A DNA stretch of 64,000 nucleotides from Absidia repens (Eukaryota; Mucoromycota; Mucoromycetes; Mucorales; Cunninghamellaceae). A program made the position numbers and the translations under genes. Every line of letters starts with the position of its first letter. The first letter of the stretch is position 1. Below are positions 11,390 to 50,763 of the stretch, in pieces. The notes below the pieces were generated by a model, which saw only the letters and a program-made list of their open reading frames with translations, was not told the DNA's origin and ran no database searches. Where the stretch lies: assembly GCA_002105175.1 (NCBI GenBank), contig MCGE01000046.1:62001-126000 (forward strand), in the 5' to 3' direction.

Positions 11390-12270
11390 TGGTGCGGCTC
11401 ACTTATAATGTCAAATATTAGGCATGATCCTAGAAAGCTGATAGTTTTTTAAAAAATGGTCACCTCAAAAAAATAATCTATAAACATGATAATTCAGAAC
11501 TTTAAGAACAAAACTTGTACATCGGTAATAAAAAAAGAAAAACTTATCAGCCTTCAAAAAAAGAAGACTTTGGCTGGTTGGCCTAGGATTTGAAACGTAT
11601 CTGATGTACTAAAAAGGAAAATTTATTTTGTAAAACACCGCGAAAACTGTAAAATATTATACAGAAAACAAGGTCCTGTTTTTTGCTCGTTCCCGCTCCC
11701 ATATCAAGCGTAGCTAATAGATGTAGATGTAGACGTAGATTGTAAGACTTGCAAATGAGGATTAGTTTATGTATTTTTATTTACTATTTGTACAATAAAA
11801 AGTGCCGTCCCTTCTTTTTTTTTGTTGTTGTTGTACGGACACACACCCGTTTGTATTTTTCTGCTTATAATAAGTCCATGTATATACATTTGGTAAGACA
11901 ATCAAACAATGATAGAAAAAGGCAAGACAAAGTTTATTCAGTAGTAATTATAACAATGACAACCAATACTAAACTAAGATGAAGGTTAATCTAATAGTGG
12001 TCCCGAATTCTGGATCCAAAATGAAAGGGGTTCCCCATGCATCTCGTAAGACCTGAGCTGAAAACCCTTCTAAACTAGTCCTGACGCTAATCCCAGTTGA
12101 ACAACATCCCATTGAGATCAATGAAATGGCGGTGACTTGAGGAAAAAAAAAAAAAGAAAAGAAAGGAAGGAGGGAAAAAAAAGGCTTTAAAAGGTATTTT
12201 TCAAACTGCGATTGAAGCCATAAATTTGAAATGAAAATTGAAAATTTGACATTATAAGCGAGCCGCACCA
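11390..12270. mobile_element. TIR element TE1 (non-autonomous, TA-flanked, deleted copy)
   Basis: The ends are inverted repeats: left TGGTGCGGCTCACTTATA, right ending AGCGAGCCGCACCA. TA lies on both sides (11388-11389 and 12271-12272), the target-site pattern of the Tc1/mariner group. The left 240 bases match the left end of TE2 and the right 350 bases match its right end, but the middle of TE2 is absent, so this is an internally deleted relative of about 880 bases. No transposase frame is present. It contains one M-type module at about 11930-12130. Confidence 0.85.
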
Positions 12271-14558: not shown

Positions 14559-15023
14559 TTATATATAAAAAAGAAAATGGATCGTAAGAAAACTCACATA
14601 TAGTAACTTTAATTTCGCTCTTTTGGCCCTCCAACTTTTTTTTTTTTTTTTTTTTTCTGATCCACCGCTGACGCCCTGTCCACCATAGGAATCGTCCATC
14701 TTTTTTTTCTCCATCGCTGCCCACCCATAGTGCCAAATCACAGAGTCTTCCATCAAAAGCCACACTTCAGAAACCCCTTGCCACCCAGTAGCTACATAAT
14801 TAATACTATTTTCAACTTCGCTCTTCAATATACCCCACCGCAACAAATACACTGTAATAGCTGTTTTTTCACACAAACACATCCCTGTTTTCTTTTCTAC
14901 GCACAAACTTATAGAGTTGGTGGAAGAAGTCTCCATAATACCCAATCCGTTCCTTTTATTTATATATATAGACACACTTTTTTTTTGTCTATGCATATGT
15001 AATACACATTCGATGAAGCTCAT
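14559..15023 (-). other. Open frame inside TE2, shared with TE3
   Basis: From ATG 15023 the frame reads MSFIECVLHMHRQKK and continues through ITVYLLRWGILKSEVEN and VWLLMEDSVIWHYGWAA to a Lys-rich run over a poly-T tract. TE3 carries almost the same frame at 29094-29513. I do not recognise a domain. Being nearly identical in two recent copies does not show selection, so it may be non-coding. Confidence 0.35.
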
Positions 15024-15062
15024 AATGTAAACGTACAACAGAGAAACTGAATATAAGAAAAA

Positions 15063-15260
15063 TAATATTTATTCAGACGTAGATTTAAACGATGACATAC
15101 TATCACTAAACTAATGACGATTCCATGATGCTAATCTACTGAGTTCCCAAGTCCTACATCCAAAATAAAAGGGGTTCCCCATGATGTTTGTTTTGCGTTT
15201 TTAAAAACGCCCCTAATTCAAATTCTAACACTAATCCTAGATCATCAGAACCCCACTAAG
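15063..15260 (-). repeat. Family M module inside TE2 (first)
   Basis: It has the M core in plus reading (TATTTATTCAGACGTAGAT, ATCCAAAATAAAAGGGGTT, GTTCCCCATG). On the minus strand it ends in CTGAATAAATATT. The counterpart in TE3 is at about 28860-29060. Confidence 0.75.
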
Positions 15261-28859: not shown

Positions 28860-29060
28860 AGTGGGGTTCTGAGGATCTAGGATTAGTGTTAGAATTTGAA
28901 TTAGGGGCGTTTTTAAAAACGCAAAACAAACATCATGGGGAACCCCTTTTATTTTGGATGTAGGATTTGGGAACTCAGTAGATTAGCATCATGGAATCGT
29001 CATTAGTTTAGTGATAGTATGTCATCGTTTGAATCTACGTCTGAATAAATATTATTTTTC
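28860..29060 (+). repeat. Family M module inside TE3 (second)
   Basis: It has GGGGAACCCCTTTTATTTTG, then TTAGTTTAGTGATAG and ACGTCTGAATAAATATT. It is the counterpart of the TE2 module at 15063-15260. Confidence 0.75.
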
Positions 29061-29783
29061 TTATATTCAGTTTCTCTGTTGTACGTTTACATTATGAGCT
29101 TCATCGAATGTGTATTACATATGCATAGACAAAAAAAAAGTGTGTCTATATATATAAATAAAAGGAACGGATTGGGTATTATGGAGACTTCTTCCAACAG
29201 CTCTATAAGTTTGTGCGTAGAAAAGAAAACAGGGATGTGTTTGTGTGAAAAAACAGCTATTACAGTGTATTTGTTGCGGTGGGGTATATTGAAGAGCGAA
29301 GTTGAGAATAGTATTAATTATGTAGCTACTGGGTGGCAAGGGGTTTCTGAAGTGTGGCTTTTGATGGAAGACTCTGTGATTTGGCACTATGGGTGGGCAG
29401 CGATGGAGAAAAAAAGATGGACGATTCCTATGGTGGACAGGGCGTCAGCGGTGGATCAGAAAAAAAAAAAAAAAAGTTGGAGGGCCAAAAGAGCGAAATT
29501 AAAGTTACTATAAGTGAGTTTTCTTACGATCCATACCATTTTCTTTTTAGTACATCAGATACATTTCAAATCCTAGGCCAGCCAGCCAAAGTCTTCTTTT
29601 TTTGAAGGCTGATAAATCTTTCTTTTTTTTATAAAAAAAAACAAACTGATGTACACGTTTTGTTCTTAAAGGTCTGAATCATCATGCTTATACATTATTT
29701 TTTTGAGGTGGCCATTTTTTAAAAAACCATCAGCTTTCTAGGATCATTCCTAAATTTTGACATTATAAGTGAGCCGCACCATA

Positions 29784-38683: not shown

Positions 38684-40490
38684 CTATATATTTTTTAAAT
38701 CATTTCGTTCATCAAAGTGGATCCAAACACCATTCTTCGGTTTTGTTGTGAGGACGATTTTCGTTTCAATGATATTGCCAGGCTTGAGTGTCAGAGAGAA
38801 TTGATTCATGGTGAGAGCAATCATGGTACGCAGTTCCAGAATCGCCAAGTTTTTTCCCAGACAAGCATGCTGTCCCAAAGTGAAAGTGATGTCAGGGAAT
38901 CGATACTGTGTTTCCGTCGTGTGTTTTCCATCGATGTTGCTTTTGCTATTTTCACCAAAACTGTCAAAATCATTGTATGTTGAGTCTGATGTTGTGTTGG
39001 AAGCTTCGGTGACAGGTGGAGCCAGCCAGCGGTCAATGTTGAATTCATTAGGATTTGGAAAAATGTCAGGGTTCATTTGCAGACCACGAATGTTGCACCA
39101 GATTTCCGCGCCACCAGGGACCACAGTGTTATCCACAAGTGTATCACGATTGACATGCACCGGAATAAAAACAACGGCGGGATATTTACGAAGCGTTTCC
39201 CGGTAAACAGCATTAACCAATGGCAGTTGCGCCAGCTTATCGGCCGTAATGGATTCAGGAGCCACTGGAGGAGGACCAAGGACGCGTCGTACTTCTTCAA
39301 ACACACGTTGTTGTATATCAGGATGGCGCGCTAGTTCAGAGAAGCAAAAGGAAAGTGTATGAGCCGTGGTGTCATAGCCAGCAAAAGTCAGAGAGAGTAA
39401 ATCGTTCACCAGATCTTCACGATTGTTGTCATATTTGCCACTGTCCAAACCTGCTGCCGCGACACAATGATAGGTCGCTGAGCCTGTCCCCACCTTACTC
39501 CTTTGAAGTCTTTTGTGTTCTTCTTCAGCCTTTTCTAATGAATCACGGATAAAATCTTTGAGCATTTCCCTCGACGGTCGGTAGGATCGTTGTGCCCAGG
39601 TTGTTTCATTCAATCCAAAAGGTAACCAAGCTTCAGGGGATTGAAATCCAAGACCAAGTTTCAAATGTTCGTTCTAATAAAGCACACATATACACAAAAG
39701 TTAAAAAATATTATACAATAATTTCAGTTTGAAACAGCTCTGCTTACCTTGAGATTAGCCCGTCCACCCACGATGTCAAAGTTTAAATCGCGGCGGCCAT
39801 AAAGATAGTAGTTGATGACATTCATGGTAAGATCCGTAAATACATTATCAACTTCCAGAGCAGTTCCTTGCAAAGCATGTTGCCCAAATAGAGTCATCAC
39901 CTCAGTTGCTTTTTCACCCACATACGGCAATAGCTTTGGGACCAATTGCCTAGGTTGAAATGGAGGTAAAAGAACGTGACGCCTCCAAGCCCAGTCCTTT
40001 TTATATTCACACCAAAAAAAAAAAAATCAGACCCAAGTTCAATCACCGCTCCTCAGTTAACATGTTTTCAATTTACCTCGCCCACCGTATTATTGATACT
40101 AGGTCCCCCAAAAACCAGACTGTGTATACGTCGAATCAAATCACCCCTTTGAACACATGGACCTAGTTTTTTGTTCTTTGCTTGACCATCTATTAAAACG
40201 TCCTTGATACCTTTCAAAGTGTTGACTAGGACTAAGGGCCTGCCCATCACAGAAAAGCACACACTAATCGGACTTTGTCTTTGATCTTGACCCACCTCGA
40301 TCAAGAATTTCGATAATACGTCTTCGCCATCATGTGGTGGAGGAACAAAGCCCAGGTATTGGATCCAAAAATTTCGACTTGTAGGCTGTGGAGCATTGGC
40401 CAGACAGGAGGTATACCGTCGAACGGCATAATTCAACACAAAAATTGAGACAGCGGCACCTAACGTATTCAATACAGTCAGTTCCATCAT
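38684..40490 (-). CDS. Cytochrome P450 monooxygenase
   Basis: The first usable ATG is at 40490 (MMELTVLNTLGAAVSIF); the frame before it starts with TTG. An N-terminal hydrophobic anchor (about residues 3-22) points to ER membrane attachment. The I-helix oxygen-binding motif reads FAGYDTTAHTL, the K-helix ExxR is ETLRKYP, and the haem loop is FTLGQHACLGK with cysteine as fifth ligand, so the enzyme looks complete. Length is about 540 residues in three or four exons. CYP family and substrate cannot be assigned from sequence alone. TTCAATAAAG on the minus strand near 38589 is the likely poly(A) signal. The neighbouring genes do not form an obvious biosynthetic cluster. Confidence 0.93.
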
Positions 40491-42383: not shown

Positions 42384-43604
42384 ATGACCACAACTGCTCT
42401 TATCCATGATCCTTTACTGTTTTATCCATATGCTCAAACACATTACGAAGGAACCTCGTATTTATCGATGACGGACAATGAAAAGACCGCAGCAACAGCA
42501 ACACTCCCACACACCAATTCACCCGTCACTTCTTCCCCTTCGACATCGTCAATGTCATCCATGGCGTCTTTACCGACTTGTAAGGATGCTGATATTGATT
42601 GGAATGAAATCATGTCCAGTATCAAGAAAGCAATGTATAATACTACCGGTGCCGTTGTCCCGTCGCCTGCGACTTATATTTGCAAAAACACCTCCTTTGC
42701 ACCTGAACCCTCGAAGGATCCCGCTTTCTTTTACAACAGCAACATTTTAGATGTCAAGGATATGTATTCTTACCGTCAATTGCGCTCTGAAAACTTACTC
42801 TATCGTATTTTTAACTGCCCTCTTTTTACTATGGACATTGATCAGACTTCGGTGATGCGGCTCGCCAAAGGTGTGTTTCTCGCCAACAAATTACAGCAAT
42901 CTACCCCTACTTCTCCTGTATTGAGTGCTCAATACTATATGGATAATTCATATTTGGATGGTAAGTCATTATTTTATTATTACTATTATTATTATTTTGT
43001 GTGTGGTGCCCCGTTTACAAGCTGTAGTACTCAATTTTTTCCTTTTTCTCTAGTGGATGCCTCTGTTGATACGATTGATACTTTCCATTATGGCGATATA
43101 AAACGATTCATGTTACAGCAACAACAACAAGAGCAACATCTTCAACAAGACTTTATGCCATATAGCTATACATTTGGAGCACGGTATTCAAATCCTTATC
43201 ATGGACGTGATGTTGTAATTCGTGGAAATCAATTGCCACTGTGGTGTCAGACCCTCTTCTTGAATGAATGTATCAACCGCATGCCTTTGGAACCCAACGT
43301 CCCTTACATTGGACTCTTCCCATTTGCACCCAATTTCACCGTCGTCTTCCAAACCTTATCAACAGACATATCATCAGCCAATTACCAGCCATGCTACCCG
43401 GATTTGACGTTTGTTTATGAACGATATGCTATGGAATTTTCGGATCCTTTCAATCTGGTGGATTCCGATACTGACGCTTTATGGTCTAAGCAAAAGCAAC
43501 AAGTCGTGGATCAAATGCTGCTGTGTGATATTCCTGAAGCGTCGGCAGAAGTGTTGACGCAGCTGGCAAATCTCTGGGCAACGGATCAAGGTCTCAATCT
43601 TTAG
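42384..43604 (+). CDS. Unknown protein, about 375 aa
   Basis: ATG 42384 follows a T/C-rich leader. The frame is open from start to stop at 43604 (406 codons), but 42961-43053 has GTAAGT and CTCTAG ends, is T-rich, and encodes a YYYYYYYF run; it is almost certainly an intron of 93 bases whose length keeps the frame. The spliced product is about 375 residues: a Ser/Thr-rich N-terminal part, then a more ordered part (DMYSYRQLRSENLLYRIFNC; NPYHGRDVVIRGNQLPLW; VPYIGLFPFAPNFTVVF). No transmembrane segment or signal peptide. I do not recognise the family. Confidence 0.7.
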   Translation: MTTTALIHDPLLFYPYAQTHYEGTSYLSMTDNEKTAATATLPHTNSPVTSSPSTSSMSSMASLPTCKDADIDWNEIMSSIKKAMYNTTGAVVPSPATYICKNTSFAPEPSKDPAFFYNSNILDVKDMYSYRQLRSENLLYRIFNCPLFTMDIDQTSVMRLAKGVFLANKLQQSTPTSPVLSAQYYMDNSYLDGKSLFYYYYYYYFVCGAPFTSCSTQFFPFSLVDASVDTIDTFHYGDIKRFMLQQQQQEQHLQQDFMPYSYTFGARYSNPYHGRDVVIRGNQLPLWCQTLFLNECINRMPLEPNVPYIGLFPFAPNFTVVFQTLSTDISSANYQPCYPDLTFVYERYAMEFSDPFNLVDSDTDALWSKQKQQVVDQMLLCDIPEASAEVLTQLANLWATDQGLNL

Positions 43605-45859: not shown

Positions 45860-46243
45860 TTACATACGAGGACGAGGCTGGACCCATCCAGCACTTGCGA
45901 TTTGAAGGCTGTTTTTGCCACCCAGGAGGTTGGTTAGTGGACCGTCATCTTGGATTCCCTTCAACAGATCTCTAGATTGGATTATATTACGTCCGGCATC
46001 CAAAGTTGCTTGGCCAGCTTTTTCGATTATTTCAGTAGACAAATATTCCAAAATTGATGCCAAGTAAACGGAGGTTAGTTTGCTGTATCGCTTCACATAT
46101 CGATCATTCCGTAACATGGTGCCTATTCGAGCGACGGGGAAGTTGATACCTGCCTTCTTGGACATTGTTGCTCTTATGCGTTTCGGCACGGGAGGAGACT
46201 GAGGAGTGGTTGGTTCATCTTTAACACTAGGGGTTATCGACAT
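45860..46243 (-). CDS. Divergent histone H2A variant
   Basis: A single-exon frame of 127 residues from ATG 46243. The histone fold is clear: KKAGINFPVARIGTMLRN (alpha 1), SVYLASILEYLSTEIIEKAG (alpha 2), then a IIQSRDL block and LLGG. Compared with canonical H2A (family knowledge, aligned by eye without gaps to LLGG), under half the core residues agree. E56, E61, E64 and D90 of the acidic patch are kept, but the following EE is GP. R77 is I, and the C-terminus after LLGG (ending GWVQPRPRM) does not resemble the docking domain. The 30-residue tail has few lysines, TP and SP sites and VKDE, which fits a SUMO consensus. It is neither H2A.Z nor macroH2A. It is head-to-head with the H2B variant. 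Confidence 0.9.
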   Translation of the reverse strand: MSITPSVKDEPTTPQSPPVPKRIRATMSKKAGINFPVARIGTMLRNDRYVKRYSKLTSVYLASILEYLSTEIIEKAGQATLDAGRNIIQSRDLLKGIQDDGPLTNLLGGKNSLQIASAGWVQPRPRM

Positions 46244-46264
46244 TGTTTTAGGAGTATAAAGAAG

Positions 46265-46337
<73 letters not shown>

Positions 46338-46575
46338 GGAAGGTTGACAAAGAAAAAGAGCGAGAAAAAGAAACCGAAATACAAAGGCACGGGCGGTCAT
46401 TGAAATCAGGAACACACTTAGCATAAAGTTTCAGTATTTAAATGAAGGATATGATCAGTGAAACTGACCACATTGATCACTTACAAAAAAAAAATATTAA
46501 ACAATTCGCTTTCTCTTTTTTTTTTCTTTCTCCTTTTTTTGTTTTTTTTTTTTTGTGAAAAAAGGCATTTAAATA
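46244..46575. promoter_or_regulatory. Divergent promoter of the H2A/H2B variant pair
   Basis: 332 bases between the ATGs. On the H2A side is a (GA)n tract at about 46268-46331, which reads (TC)n in its leader. In the middle, TCAGTGAAACTGA (46455-46467) is a perfect dyad, overlapped and followed by TGATCA (46452) and TGATCAC (46474). Canonical fungal H2A and H2B genes are also commonly divergent pairs, so a shared control is likely, but the element itself is unproven. Confidence 0.65.
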
Positions 46576-47081
46576 ATGAATCCAAACAACCAAGGTAAAA
46601 GAATCAAAATCAAAAAATCAAATTTTTTTTAGTAAAAAAAAAAACAAGTATGAAGCATGAATTTTTTGATTTCTAAAACTCTTTCATTCACGGTACTGTA
46701 GAAGCCTCAGCAGTCAATGTAAACACCATTACTACCAGAAAGCGTAGCTCAAAGGTTGCTCGAAGGGTCTCATTTGATAGGTACTTACGAATCATTCAGC
46801 GCCAAATCCATCCTGCCTGCAAGATCTCTGCCGACTCCCTCAGGGCTTTGAATTCTATGGTCGGATCTCTTTTCAAGAGGATTGCTTCTGAAGCTGGAGA
46901 GCTGGCCAAAAAGGAAAAACGACCTACCTTAATGCCTCGTGACGTTGAATTTGCTTGTCGATTGGTCCTTCCAATGGAGTTGCAGATACAAGCCCGTGCT
47001 GCTGGCGATAAGGCCGTTGAGAAATATCAAGATACTTTGCAACATGAGCGTGTTCAACGAGAGCATGCTCAACGTCAATAG
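46576..47081 (+). CDS. Divergent histone H2B variant
   Basis: Two exons, 46576-46594 and 46702-47081, giving 132 residues (MNPNNQEASAVNVNTITTRK at the start). Frame and splice sites (CAAG/GTAAAA, CTGTAG/A) fit exactly. The core aligns with canonical H2B without gaps: FDRYLRIIQRQIHP (alpha 1), ISADSLRALNSMVGSLFKRI (alpha 2), SEAGELAKKEKRPTLMPRDV, RLVLPMELQIQARAAGDKAV and EKY at the ubiquitination region, whose lysine is kept. Acidic-patch E105 is kept and E113 is alanine. The N-terminal tail is short and poor in lysine compared with canonical H2B, and the C-terminus is extended (TLQHERVQREHAQRQ). A poly(A) signal AATAAA lies near 47191. It is the probable dimer partner of the adjacent H2A variant. 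Confidence 0.9.
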
Positions 47082-47344: not shown

Positions 47345-48424
47345 ATGGTAAGCATTAGATGAAAAAACAAAACCAAATCAGCGATATCATGGTCATGGCA
47401 GAATCAATTCATGTGTGAATGGATGGATGGATGGATGGACATGGATACTGGATGGATGACTGGATTTAGATACAACCACAACAATCTCAAGGAACGTAGT
47501 TGTTAGTAATCGACATGTGGCTACACCCTTAGTCATGAGACTCTCACCAAATGACGACTTGAACGACCAGCTATTTGACAACAATGCAACATGGATCAGT
47601 AACAACAAGAACGAATTTTCTTCATTTGGATTCACCAGACCCTTTTTTGATTCTGCCATGGACCATTCACAGGGTTGTGCATCAGGAAATCATCATACTC
47701 ACCAGGTTTTTTTTTTTGAATGACACCTTTGTTTCTCTGTATGTGTTATTATTGTTATTATTATTAATAGAGCGCTGAACAGAAGCCCGCTGCTGCCAAC
47801 CCCATGAAGGCTCTTCACATTGAAAAGCTTGTTCTCAACATCTCTGTCGGTGAATCTGGTGATCGTTTGACCCGTGCTGCCAAGGTGCTCGAACAATTGA
47901 CTGGTCAAACCCCTGTGTACTCCAAGGCTCGCTACACTGTCCGTACCTTCGGTATCCGTCGTAACGAAAAGATCTCTGTCCATGTCACTGTCCGTGGTCC
48001 CAAGGCTGAAGAAATCTTGGAACGTGGTTTGAAGGTCAAGGAATACGAATTGCGTGACCGTAACTTCTCTGCCACCGGTAACTTTGGTTTCGGTATCGAC
48101 GAACATATCGATTTGGGTATCAAGTACGATCCTTCCATTGGTATTTACGGTATGGACTACTACGTTGTCATGGGTCGCCCTGGTTTCCGTGTCGCTCGCC
48201 GCAAGCGTGCCCAAGCCTCCGTTGGTATCAACCACAAGATCAAGAAGACCGAATCTGTTGAATGGTTCAAGTCTCGCGTAAGTTGACAACAACAAAAAAA
48301 AAAGAGGGAAATGGTGCTTGGGTAAAATGGCTGGTCATGATTGAATGTGTATTCACTTTCTTTTTTATTTTATTTTACTGATATGCTGGTTGTATAGTTC
48401 GATGGTATTGTCTTGAACAAATAA
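47345..48424 (+). CDS. RPL11: Ribosomal protein L11 (uL5)
   Basis: Three exons: the first is only the start codon (47345-47347), then 47771-48277 and 48398-48424. The protein starts [20 protein letters not shown] and contains [57 protein letters not shown] and the C-terminal FDGIVLNK typical of eukaryotic L11, which binds 5S rRNA with L5 in the central protuberance of the large subunit. Its codon use is visibly more biased than that of its neighbours, as expected for a highly expressed gene. The 423-base first intron holds GGAT tetranucleotide repeats near 47418-47460. The stop codon overlaps AAATAAA. Confidence 0.97.
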
Positions 48425-49288: not shown

Positions 49289-50763
49289 TCAAGTAGACAC
49301 AGGGGAAGTAGACGCAGGGAGATCCATACTGTAGCCACCCTTGCTATTTGCTTTTGTCTTGGTGGAGGAAGATACAGGAGAGCAAAGTACACGACCCTTT
49401 TCCAGTGTATACACCTCTGGACCATAAACCACAAAGGGAGGACATATACAAAAATCAACAATCCCAGACGATTGACCATCTTCATCGATCATCAATGCAC
49501 CATCAAAATGTTGAGCACGTTCTCTTGTTTCTGCTGCCGCCACATCCACTTCTTGTCCTTTCATCGCAATCCCAAGCGCCATGGCATGCTCCACCAGCAC
49601 TTGCACCTTGGCACCATAATGTTTTCGAGTATCGGATTCATGCTTGTCAAAGTGATACATAAACGGATAAGCCTTGATCAAACCACCATAGAGGAATTTC
49701 CAGTTGGCTTGGACAGCTTCATGGAGCTTCTTGTGAATGTCATTACCGGTGGTGTTTTTTTTTACCAGCACCAGCGCCATTTCTTGCCGTAAACGAGTCG
49801 AGAAGCTAGTATCGTACTTTTCCAACCAAAAGGACAGGTCATTGTAGTGATCGGTCACAGACAGGCCAGGGAATACATTCAGATTCATGTTTTGCACCAA
49901 GACATCCATCATAAACTTTTCCGTCAATAAACGCACTCGGTGTAGTGGAAGAGGGCTGCCCATCCCTTCGATACAATCAGACAAATTGAGCCAAAACGTA
50001 CGGAGAGCATTGGTGGCTGTCACTGGGTCCACTTGTTCCAATAATTCGTCGGCGAGGGTACGAATCTTTGCTTTGAGCTGTTTGAGTTTTAAGCTGATCG
50101 ACTCCAAATCATCACTGGTGGCACGCATTGACTGTAGGTGTTCACGGTAGTTAGTTTCCAGTTGTTGTCGAGCTTCTGATCGTTGCTGAATTTTGGTTTT
50201 CATTTGGCCCAGCCTATCGTTCAAGCTTTGAATGTCGATTTTGTATTGAGAGCGTTCCACTTCTAAATTGTTGAGTATGTGTCGCTGTTGATATAGTTGT
50301 GCCTTGAGTTGAGCTACCATGGGATGGACTTTGGGAGCAGAAGGTGATGTGTCGATGGATGGCTCTTGTTGTTCTTTGTTGCTACTGTCTTGATCGTTCT
50401 CCACTATAATCGTTGAGTCTCCACCTTCTTTTGCCCATGTTGCGGCAGGTTTCAAGTTCTGAGGAGATATGGGCGGTGAGTTGATATTGGTTACTGCTGT
50501 AGCTGTTGAATTCCCGCCTTTTCCATAATTTCAGGTGATGAAGGTTTGGACACATCGATGGATTGCTGGTTCTGGTATTGATAGGTGTAGGCTTTTCATT
50601 GATGGCATCTTCCTTAGTCACCTGCATAGGGGCATCATTCACCAATGAAATACGTTTCACTTTTTGAGAAGCTACGATGGAGTAAAACAAAGACGGATGG
50701 ATGAGATTATGAGGCAGTAAAACACAAGGAGCTCTTTCATTTACCTTTTTCTACTTCTGTCAT
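49289..50763 (-). CDS. Coiled-coil protein of unknown function
   Basis: Stop at 49289; exon 1 probably starts at ATG 50763 (MTEVEK). The main exon gives about 390 residues. A coiled coil at roughly residues 45-140 (HILNNLEVERSQYKIDIQSL onward) is followed by a conserved-looking globular part (LRTFWLNLSDCIEGMGSPLP; FPGLSVTDHYNDLSFWLEKY; WKFLYGGLIKAYPFMYHF) and a low-complexity tail. No family is recognised. The start of the main exon in the usual listing is TTG, not ATG, so at least one intron joins MTEVEK to it. A middle exon (SQKVKRISLVNDAPMQ) and acceptor near 50459 (CTCCTCAG) make a consistent frame, but the 5' structure is uncertain. Confidence 0.7.

Follow-up and report, generated by a model that had tools for sequence, protein, structure and literature searches.

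The window, by which we mean the whole stretch of 64,000 nucleotides of Absidia repens DNA analysed here (part of contig C41; the genome examined comprises 47.4 Mb in 79 contigs), contains a head-to-head pair of strongly divergent histone genes, whose products are paralogues of H2A and H2B on sequence grounds. We consider it probable, if only modestly so, that the two genes supply a variant H2A-H2B dimer, which takes the place of the canonical one in a minority of nucleosomes, or in one life stage, and eases their opening. The new element is a sister H2A on contig C34, which forms with the window H2A what is, by sequence comparison, a two-member fast-evolving lineage.

Identity and gene models of the window pair

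Both proteins exceeded the PF00125 cut-off of 26.4 bits, with 28.4 bits for H2A and 50.6 bits for H2B; a second Pfam family was matched with a score below that of PF00125. Solved H2A chains in the PDB matched the window H2A with a best E value of 5.4e-16. Among the best 60 of 208 matches, 58 were named H2A and the others HTA6 and HTA13, which we take to be plant H2A names. The window H2B was matched by solved H2B chains, the best with an E value of 5.9e-34 (a chain matching twice) and the next with 5.6e-19; the best 60 of 178 matches were nearly all H2B chains or H2B-containing fusions, with an H2B chain at the top. These results bear out the complete histone fold that an earlier sequence-only reading had claimed for both proteins. 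Its estimate of agreement at under half of the core positions was also correct, as 38/89 core positions of H2A and 38/92 of H2B, each about 42%, are identical to those of the canonical histones in this genome. The canonical H2A and H2B of the genome have 74/87 and 80/92 positions in common with solved chains. The core alignment, described as free of gaps, is so for the H2B core and for the H2A fold against canonical H2A, but not for the end of H2A, where three to four residues are inserted ahead of the C-terminus, followed by an early stop.

The H2A C-terminal domain PF16211 was not matched in the window H2A at E 0.001, nor in the genome-wide search at E 0.1. It was found in six of the eight H2A-type loci of the genome, and exactly the window and C34 H2As are without it. 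The H2A.Z hallmarks, i.e. the LEYLTAEVLELAGNA signature in helix 2 and a one-residue L1 insertion according to the available text of PMC12459048, are missing from the window H2A. The C-terminal H2A.X motif SQ[DE] is absent as well: the protein ends with GWVQPRPRM, and canonical H2A of the genome with SQEL. H2A.Z and the centromeric H3 had been dismissed as explanations, rightly so, given that the genome's H2A.Z is a separate gene on C12 that stands apart in the tree and that neither window protein is an H3.

The coordinates, strands and 332-base gap initially given for the pair were exact on rechecking (Table 1). According to the gene model, which is based on sequence, the H2B gene spans 46576-47081 (+) and would encode 132 aa after predicted splicing. 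The intron is predicted because the fold obtains a start codon only through splicing, the earliest in-frame ATG of the unspliced gene falling within the histone fold. At its C-terminus, the window H2B extends 13 residues beyond the canonical H2B end. The first exon of the adjacent RPL11 gene apparently consists of the ATG alone (47345-47347, then 47771-48286), and exon 1 of the window H2B is similarly short.

A viral origin was rejected after four scans of viral contigs with a single H2A, a single H2B, an H2A alignment and an H2B alignment, which gave 2, 12, 18 and 139 pattern-matching stretches, none encoding a relative. A prokaryotic origin was likewise rejected, as a scan of prokaryote genome contigs gave 69 stretches and no relative. 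Neither contig collection was designed to include fungi. Ribosomal protein L18, which is also encoded in the window, matched solved ribosomes, with what seem to be fungal ones ranking first. Single-sequence structure predictions had low confidence (mean pLDDT 54.7 and 56.0) and give no support.

Table 1. Coordinates of the window features and of further histone loci in the genome
Feature	Position	Strand	Remarks
Divergent H2A gene	45860..46243	(-)	intronless, 127 aa + stop; open frame, PF00125 and PDB H2A matches
Region between both start codons	46244..46575		332 bases, divergent; from sequence
(GA)n tract	46270..46331		within presumed H2A 5' leader; from sequence
H2B exon 1, predicted	46576..46594	(+)	MNPNNQ and first base of codon 7; A at -3
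H2B intron, predicted	46595..46701	(+)	107 bases, GT-AG, phase 1
H2B exon 2	46702..47081	(+)	entire histone fold and C-terminus
Neighbour gene upstream of the pair	42384..43604	(+)	without Pfam match; paralogue beside C34 H2A
RPL11 (ribosomal protein L11, Pfam L5 family)	47345..48286	(+)	flanks the H2A/H2B pair, outside it
Sister H2A, L034	C34:1555426-1555809	(-)	makes up the divergent lineage with the window H2A
H2A variant L035 (C41b)	C41:26.7 kb	(-)	intron position as in canonical C5 H2A
H2A variant L036	C17:178 kb	(+)	intron position as in canonical C5 H2A
Canonical H2As	contigs C5, C67, C79		genome-wide H2A search
H2A.Z	contig C12		genome-wide H2A search
Divergent H3, L043	C30:204225-204590	(+)	serine-rich tail

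Histone complement and the sister H2A

Four H2B matches were found genome-wide, three canonical ones and the window H2B, together with eight H2A-type matches, namely, three canonical H2As, H2A.Z, two further variants and two strongly divergent proteins. The canonical H2A/H2B pairs are arranged head-to-head in 3/3 cases, which agrees with the likeness in layout proposed for the window pair, and their clusters also contain H3 and H4. It was checked whether the window genes could be the genome's only H2A and H2B; three canonical pairs exist besides. Given these, H2A.Z and three further H2A variants, the window pair is additional. The C-terminus of the C17 variant is truncated and altered, and PF16211 reaches only 25 bits there. 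The divergent H3 on C30, a candidate for CENP-A by eye, is not borne out as such by its PDB matches, of which the best 60 of 176 were named H3 and none CENP-A. Loss of cenH3 is reported for Mucor in the available text of PMC8015243. An H4-like match (G000:C34:2046703-2046813) with one in-frame TAA, either a stop or an intron, lies outside the three canonical clusters.

Sister and window H2A share 39% identity. In a tree of nine sequences and 94 columns, from which mammalian short H2As were left out, the two formed one clade (SH-aLRT 98.8, UFBoot 100; 96.5/97 without the C-terminal region) that stands apart from canonical H2A, H2A.Z and the other variants. Their branch lengths were 0.96 and 0.47 substitutions per site versus 0.08 for canonical H2A. 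The clade was not explained as a long-branch artefact, because 5/5 alternative placements were rejected (AU p 0.003-0.026) and it persists without the C-terminal region; with nine sequences and 94 columns, some attraction between the two H2As may still contribute. Both differ from all other aligned H2As in 24 columns and carry the same residue in ten of these (shuffle mean 1.3; 0/20000 as high), four of the ten being located in the C-terminal region beyond the insertion, where two reference sequences are missing. Such joint derived residues point to a history common to both proteins before their split. Both end with QIA[SG]AGWVxPxP after the short insertion. The sister is nearly neutral with a net charge of +1 and a pI of 7.9. 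No H2B was found beside it over 9.5 kb, neither by profile search of ORFs of at least 40 aa (best E 0.33, the H2A itself) nor by tblastn (best E 0.20).

The closest paralogue of the gene at 42384-43604 lies at C34:1551365-1552571, with 61-69% identity and the same orientation. The distance from this gene to the H2A is 2.3 kb in the window and 2.9 kb for the C34 counterparts. With a paralogous neighbour beside both, the two H2As probably lie in one duplicated stretch, on the evidence of this single neighbour, and they have diverged more than the neighbour has. A larger duplicated segment was rejected, as a single neighbour backs it and the best paralogues of the others are elsewhere: those of RPL11 are on C5, C23 and at C34:1769167 (213 kb from the sister H2A), that of the gene at 49292-50530 is on C39, and the P450 at 38687-39673 is without a close paralogue (best 38%, on C30). 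RPL11 is present in four copies, two identical and two at 97%, possibly a sign of large-scale duplication. The view that duplication and joint divergence involved a complete dimer is not supported in the form given. The sister H2A is on another contig with no detectable H2B in 9.5 kb and one common neighbour; the H2A lineage thus has its own duplication history, and the H2A and H2B of the window may not have diverged together.

Two ORFs of the window, 14559-15068 (-) and 29049-29513 (+), are near-identical in opposite orientation and probably copies of a repeated element. A short repeated coding-like stretch was seen at 11972, 15767, 30873, 44642 and 55271 (-) in the window and at L034:3202-3333, the window copies showing about 60% identity to that of L034.

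Functional residues, constraint and expression signals

Residues were numbered as in human H2A and H2B, and the checked arginines are known as DNA-contact residues. The window H2A retains E56, E61, E64 and D90 of the acidic patch (4/6), with E91 changed to G and E92 to P, so its patch is reduced, not erased. The sister H2A carries E64D, E91V and E92A, and the window H2B keeps E105 with E113 changed to A. R29, R35, R42 and R81 are kept in the window H2A (4/7), with R32, R77 and R88 lost; both divergent H2As have lost R77 and R88 and kept R29, R35 and R42. E91 is also altered in the otherwise ordinary C17 variant, and R77 in C41b. The window H2B has kept R33, R86, R92, R99, K116 and K120 and lost K43 and K108. 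Counted as K+R minus D+E, the window H2A has a net charge of +9 and the H2B one of +11 compared to +12 and +14 for their canonical counterparts; both proteins are basic with a pI of 10.2 and 10.4.

The probability that a random frame has no stop over 127 or 132 codons is about 0.002 if equal codon use is assumed. Identity in the window H2A was kept in 19/32 invariant versus 16/48 variable columns (Fisher p 0.019) and in the sister H2A in 21/32 versus 16/48 (p 0.004), where invariant columns were defined over the seven other aligned H2As. The window H2B keeps 36 of the 80 columns common to canonical H2B and PDB chain 8grq_D. Identity was concentrated at hydrophobic positions in the window H2A (p 0.0096), and not in the window H2B (p 0.30); for the C34 H2A, p was 0.14. 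Conservation of residue class (hydrophobic/polar) at substituted sites was not significant for the window pair, with 33 vs 28.4 and 33 vs 27.5 shuffled (2505 and 2040 of 20000 shuffles as good), and significant for the C34 H2A with 33 vs 24.4 (224/20000). The case for selection on the window pair that these comparisons make is fair, not strong.

Codon adaptation, with canonical H2A/H2B as the reference set, was 0.24 and 0.30 for the window H2A and H2B genes. The other variants gave 0.29 (divergent H3), 0.26 (C17), 0.33 (C41b) and 0.38 (H2A.Z); a high group was formed by canonical H2A/H2B (0.69-0.80) and RPL11 (0.77). Going by codon use, the low values of the window pair are as expected for a minor variant. 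The codon use of the three divergent frames exceeded that of random recoding with z values of 3.7, 4.7 and 5.5. ACGTG occurs four, three and three times in the three canonical H2A/H2B intergenic regions and not at all in the 332 bases of the window, which is weak evidence with 0.28 sites expected by chance. The intergenic motif TTATATTC of all three canonical pairs is also absent from these 332 bases, where few are expected by chance. Low codon adaptation and a promoter devoid of the canonical motifs are only consistent with stage specificity. A promoter common to the window pair and the C34 H2A was rejected, as three 9-mers were shared vs 1.4 after shuffling (102/500 as good). ATTTAAAT and TGTGGTCAG are located upstream of both, and their orientation differs.

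Possible roles and relation to known variant dimers

If the pair is a variant dimer, the window H2A and H2B would pair with each other and enter nucleosomes with ordinary H3 and H4, and these nucleosomes would bind DNA ends, and their neighbours, more weakly. With docking and acidic-patch residues lost, the wrap would be shorter and internucleosome contacts weaker, as described for H2A.B and H2A.L.2 in the available text of PMC7226823. By analogy, the changes in the window pair suggest looser DNA packaging, like that of mammalian sperm-specific histones. The pair would be expressed outside the main S-phase histone programme, and spores, zygospores or germination would be guesses at the stage of its use. 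The nearly neutral C34 H2A with no adjacent H2B is a poor fit to an obligate pair and to DNA packaging. In a bolder version, which we regard as rather unlikely, a second and fast-changing H2A-H2B dimer has arisen in this fungal lineage by convergence with the short H2A/TH2B of mammalian sperm, and this dimer opens chromatin at one stage (spore or zygospore formation or germination), with the H2A family diversifying after duplication, the canonical copies identical and genetic conflict perhaps involved.

The histone fold could also have been kept for a task away from chromatin or within a different histone-fold complex, just as a non-nucleosomal function has been reported for mammalian subH2B (PMC3380720, available text). 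The strongly diverged acidic patch and L1 loop, the lost docking tail and the nearly neutral sister H2A speak for such a use, but both window proteins are still basic, 4/7 checked arginines of H2A and 4/4 of H2B (R33, R86, R92, R99) are kept and the other Pfam family scores below PF00125; we deem it unlikely. Quite unlikely, in our judgement, is that the genes are relaxed or decaying leftovers of a segmental or whole-genome duplication, with frames still open and little used. Against this, all three frames are open (with the chance of about 0.002 each for the window pair), their codon use lies above random recoding, the H2A identities favour invariant columns and the joint derived residues indicate a common history before the split. 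Long branches, low codon adaptation, a C34 copy with no H2B partner, one neighbouring gene duplicated as well and the non-significant residue-class conservation of the window pair would all be expected from decay.

A further account concerns history only and is compatible with the others: H2A would stem from a variant family of greater age, with the variant H2B joining it in the window copy alone, so that the pair is not an inherited unit. It would explain why the closest genomic relative of the window H2A has no H2B next to it and why no second variant H2B is among the four H2B matches of the genome. However, with 3/3 canonical pairs head-to-head, losing one H2B is simpler than fresh assembly, and acidic-patch residues are lost in both partners (H2A E91/E92, H2B E113), making a late-joining H2B improbable, on a par with a role outside the nucleosome.

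Descriptions of fungi usually name few histone variants other than H2A.Z and CENP-A. Partnered variants are known from other groups. Mammalian short H2As, which have no acidic patch, wrap about 120-130 bp, and TH2B is the preferred partner of H2A.L.2 (PMC7226823, available text). H2A.B/H2A.L with TH2B resemble the fungal pair in the shortened C-terminus and docking region, loss of residues of the acidic patch, fast evolution and a variant H2B partner (same source), but belong to another kingdom, and the fungal H2A, in which 4/6 acidic-patch residues are kept, ends in a QIAxAGWVxPxP motif of its own. On account of the host, the likeness is assumed to be convergence. The testis pair TH2A/TH2B also has variant H2A and H2B genes on one bidirectional promoter; these are, however, about 85-92% identical to canonical histones (PMC8685415, available text) compared to about 42% of the core in the fungal pair. 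In lily, the generative cell likewise incorporates an H2A and an H2B specific to it, gH2A and gH2B (PMC4109563, in part), and variant H2A is partnered with variant H2B in Apicomplexa (H2A.Z/H2B.Z) and trypanosomes (H2A.Z/H2B.V) according to the available part of PMC3380720. Lineage-specific H2A clades distinct from H2A.X and H2A.Z are described in the accessible text on bdelloid rotifers (PMC2642717) and brown algae (PMC12459048); the bdelloid H2As, though, replace canonical H2A and have extended tails (PMC2642717), while the fungus keeps canonical H2A and the window H2A has a short tail.

The sequence-only reading had known of no description of such a pair, which as a general statement is too strong in view of mammals, lily, Apicomplexa and trypanosomes and agrees for fungi with the partial literature covered. 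In the available text on fungal and Mucoromycota H2A/H2B variants, with subscription papers mostly outside its scope, no such pair was found, and one paper on the subject has H2A.Z as its sole named variant there; absence of a fungal pair from print is not established.

If it forms functional nucleosomes, the pair would offer a non-animal, non-plant model of a paired H2A-H2B variant that loosens chromatin, and for asking why variants of this kind change rapidly, a problem known best from sperm of mammals and from pollen. With two related H2As, one of them with an adjacent H2B, partner dependence would be directly testable.
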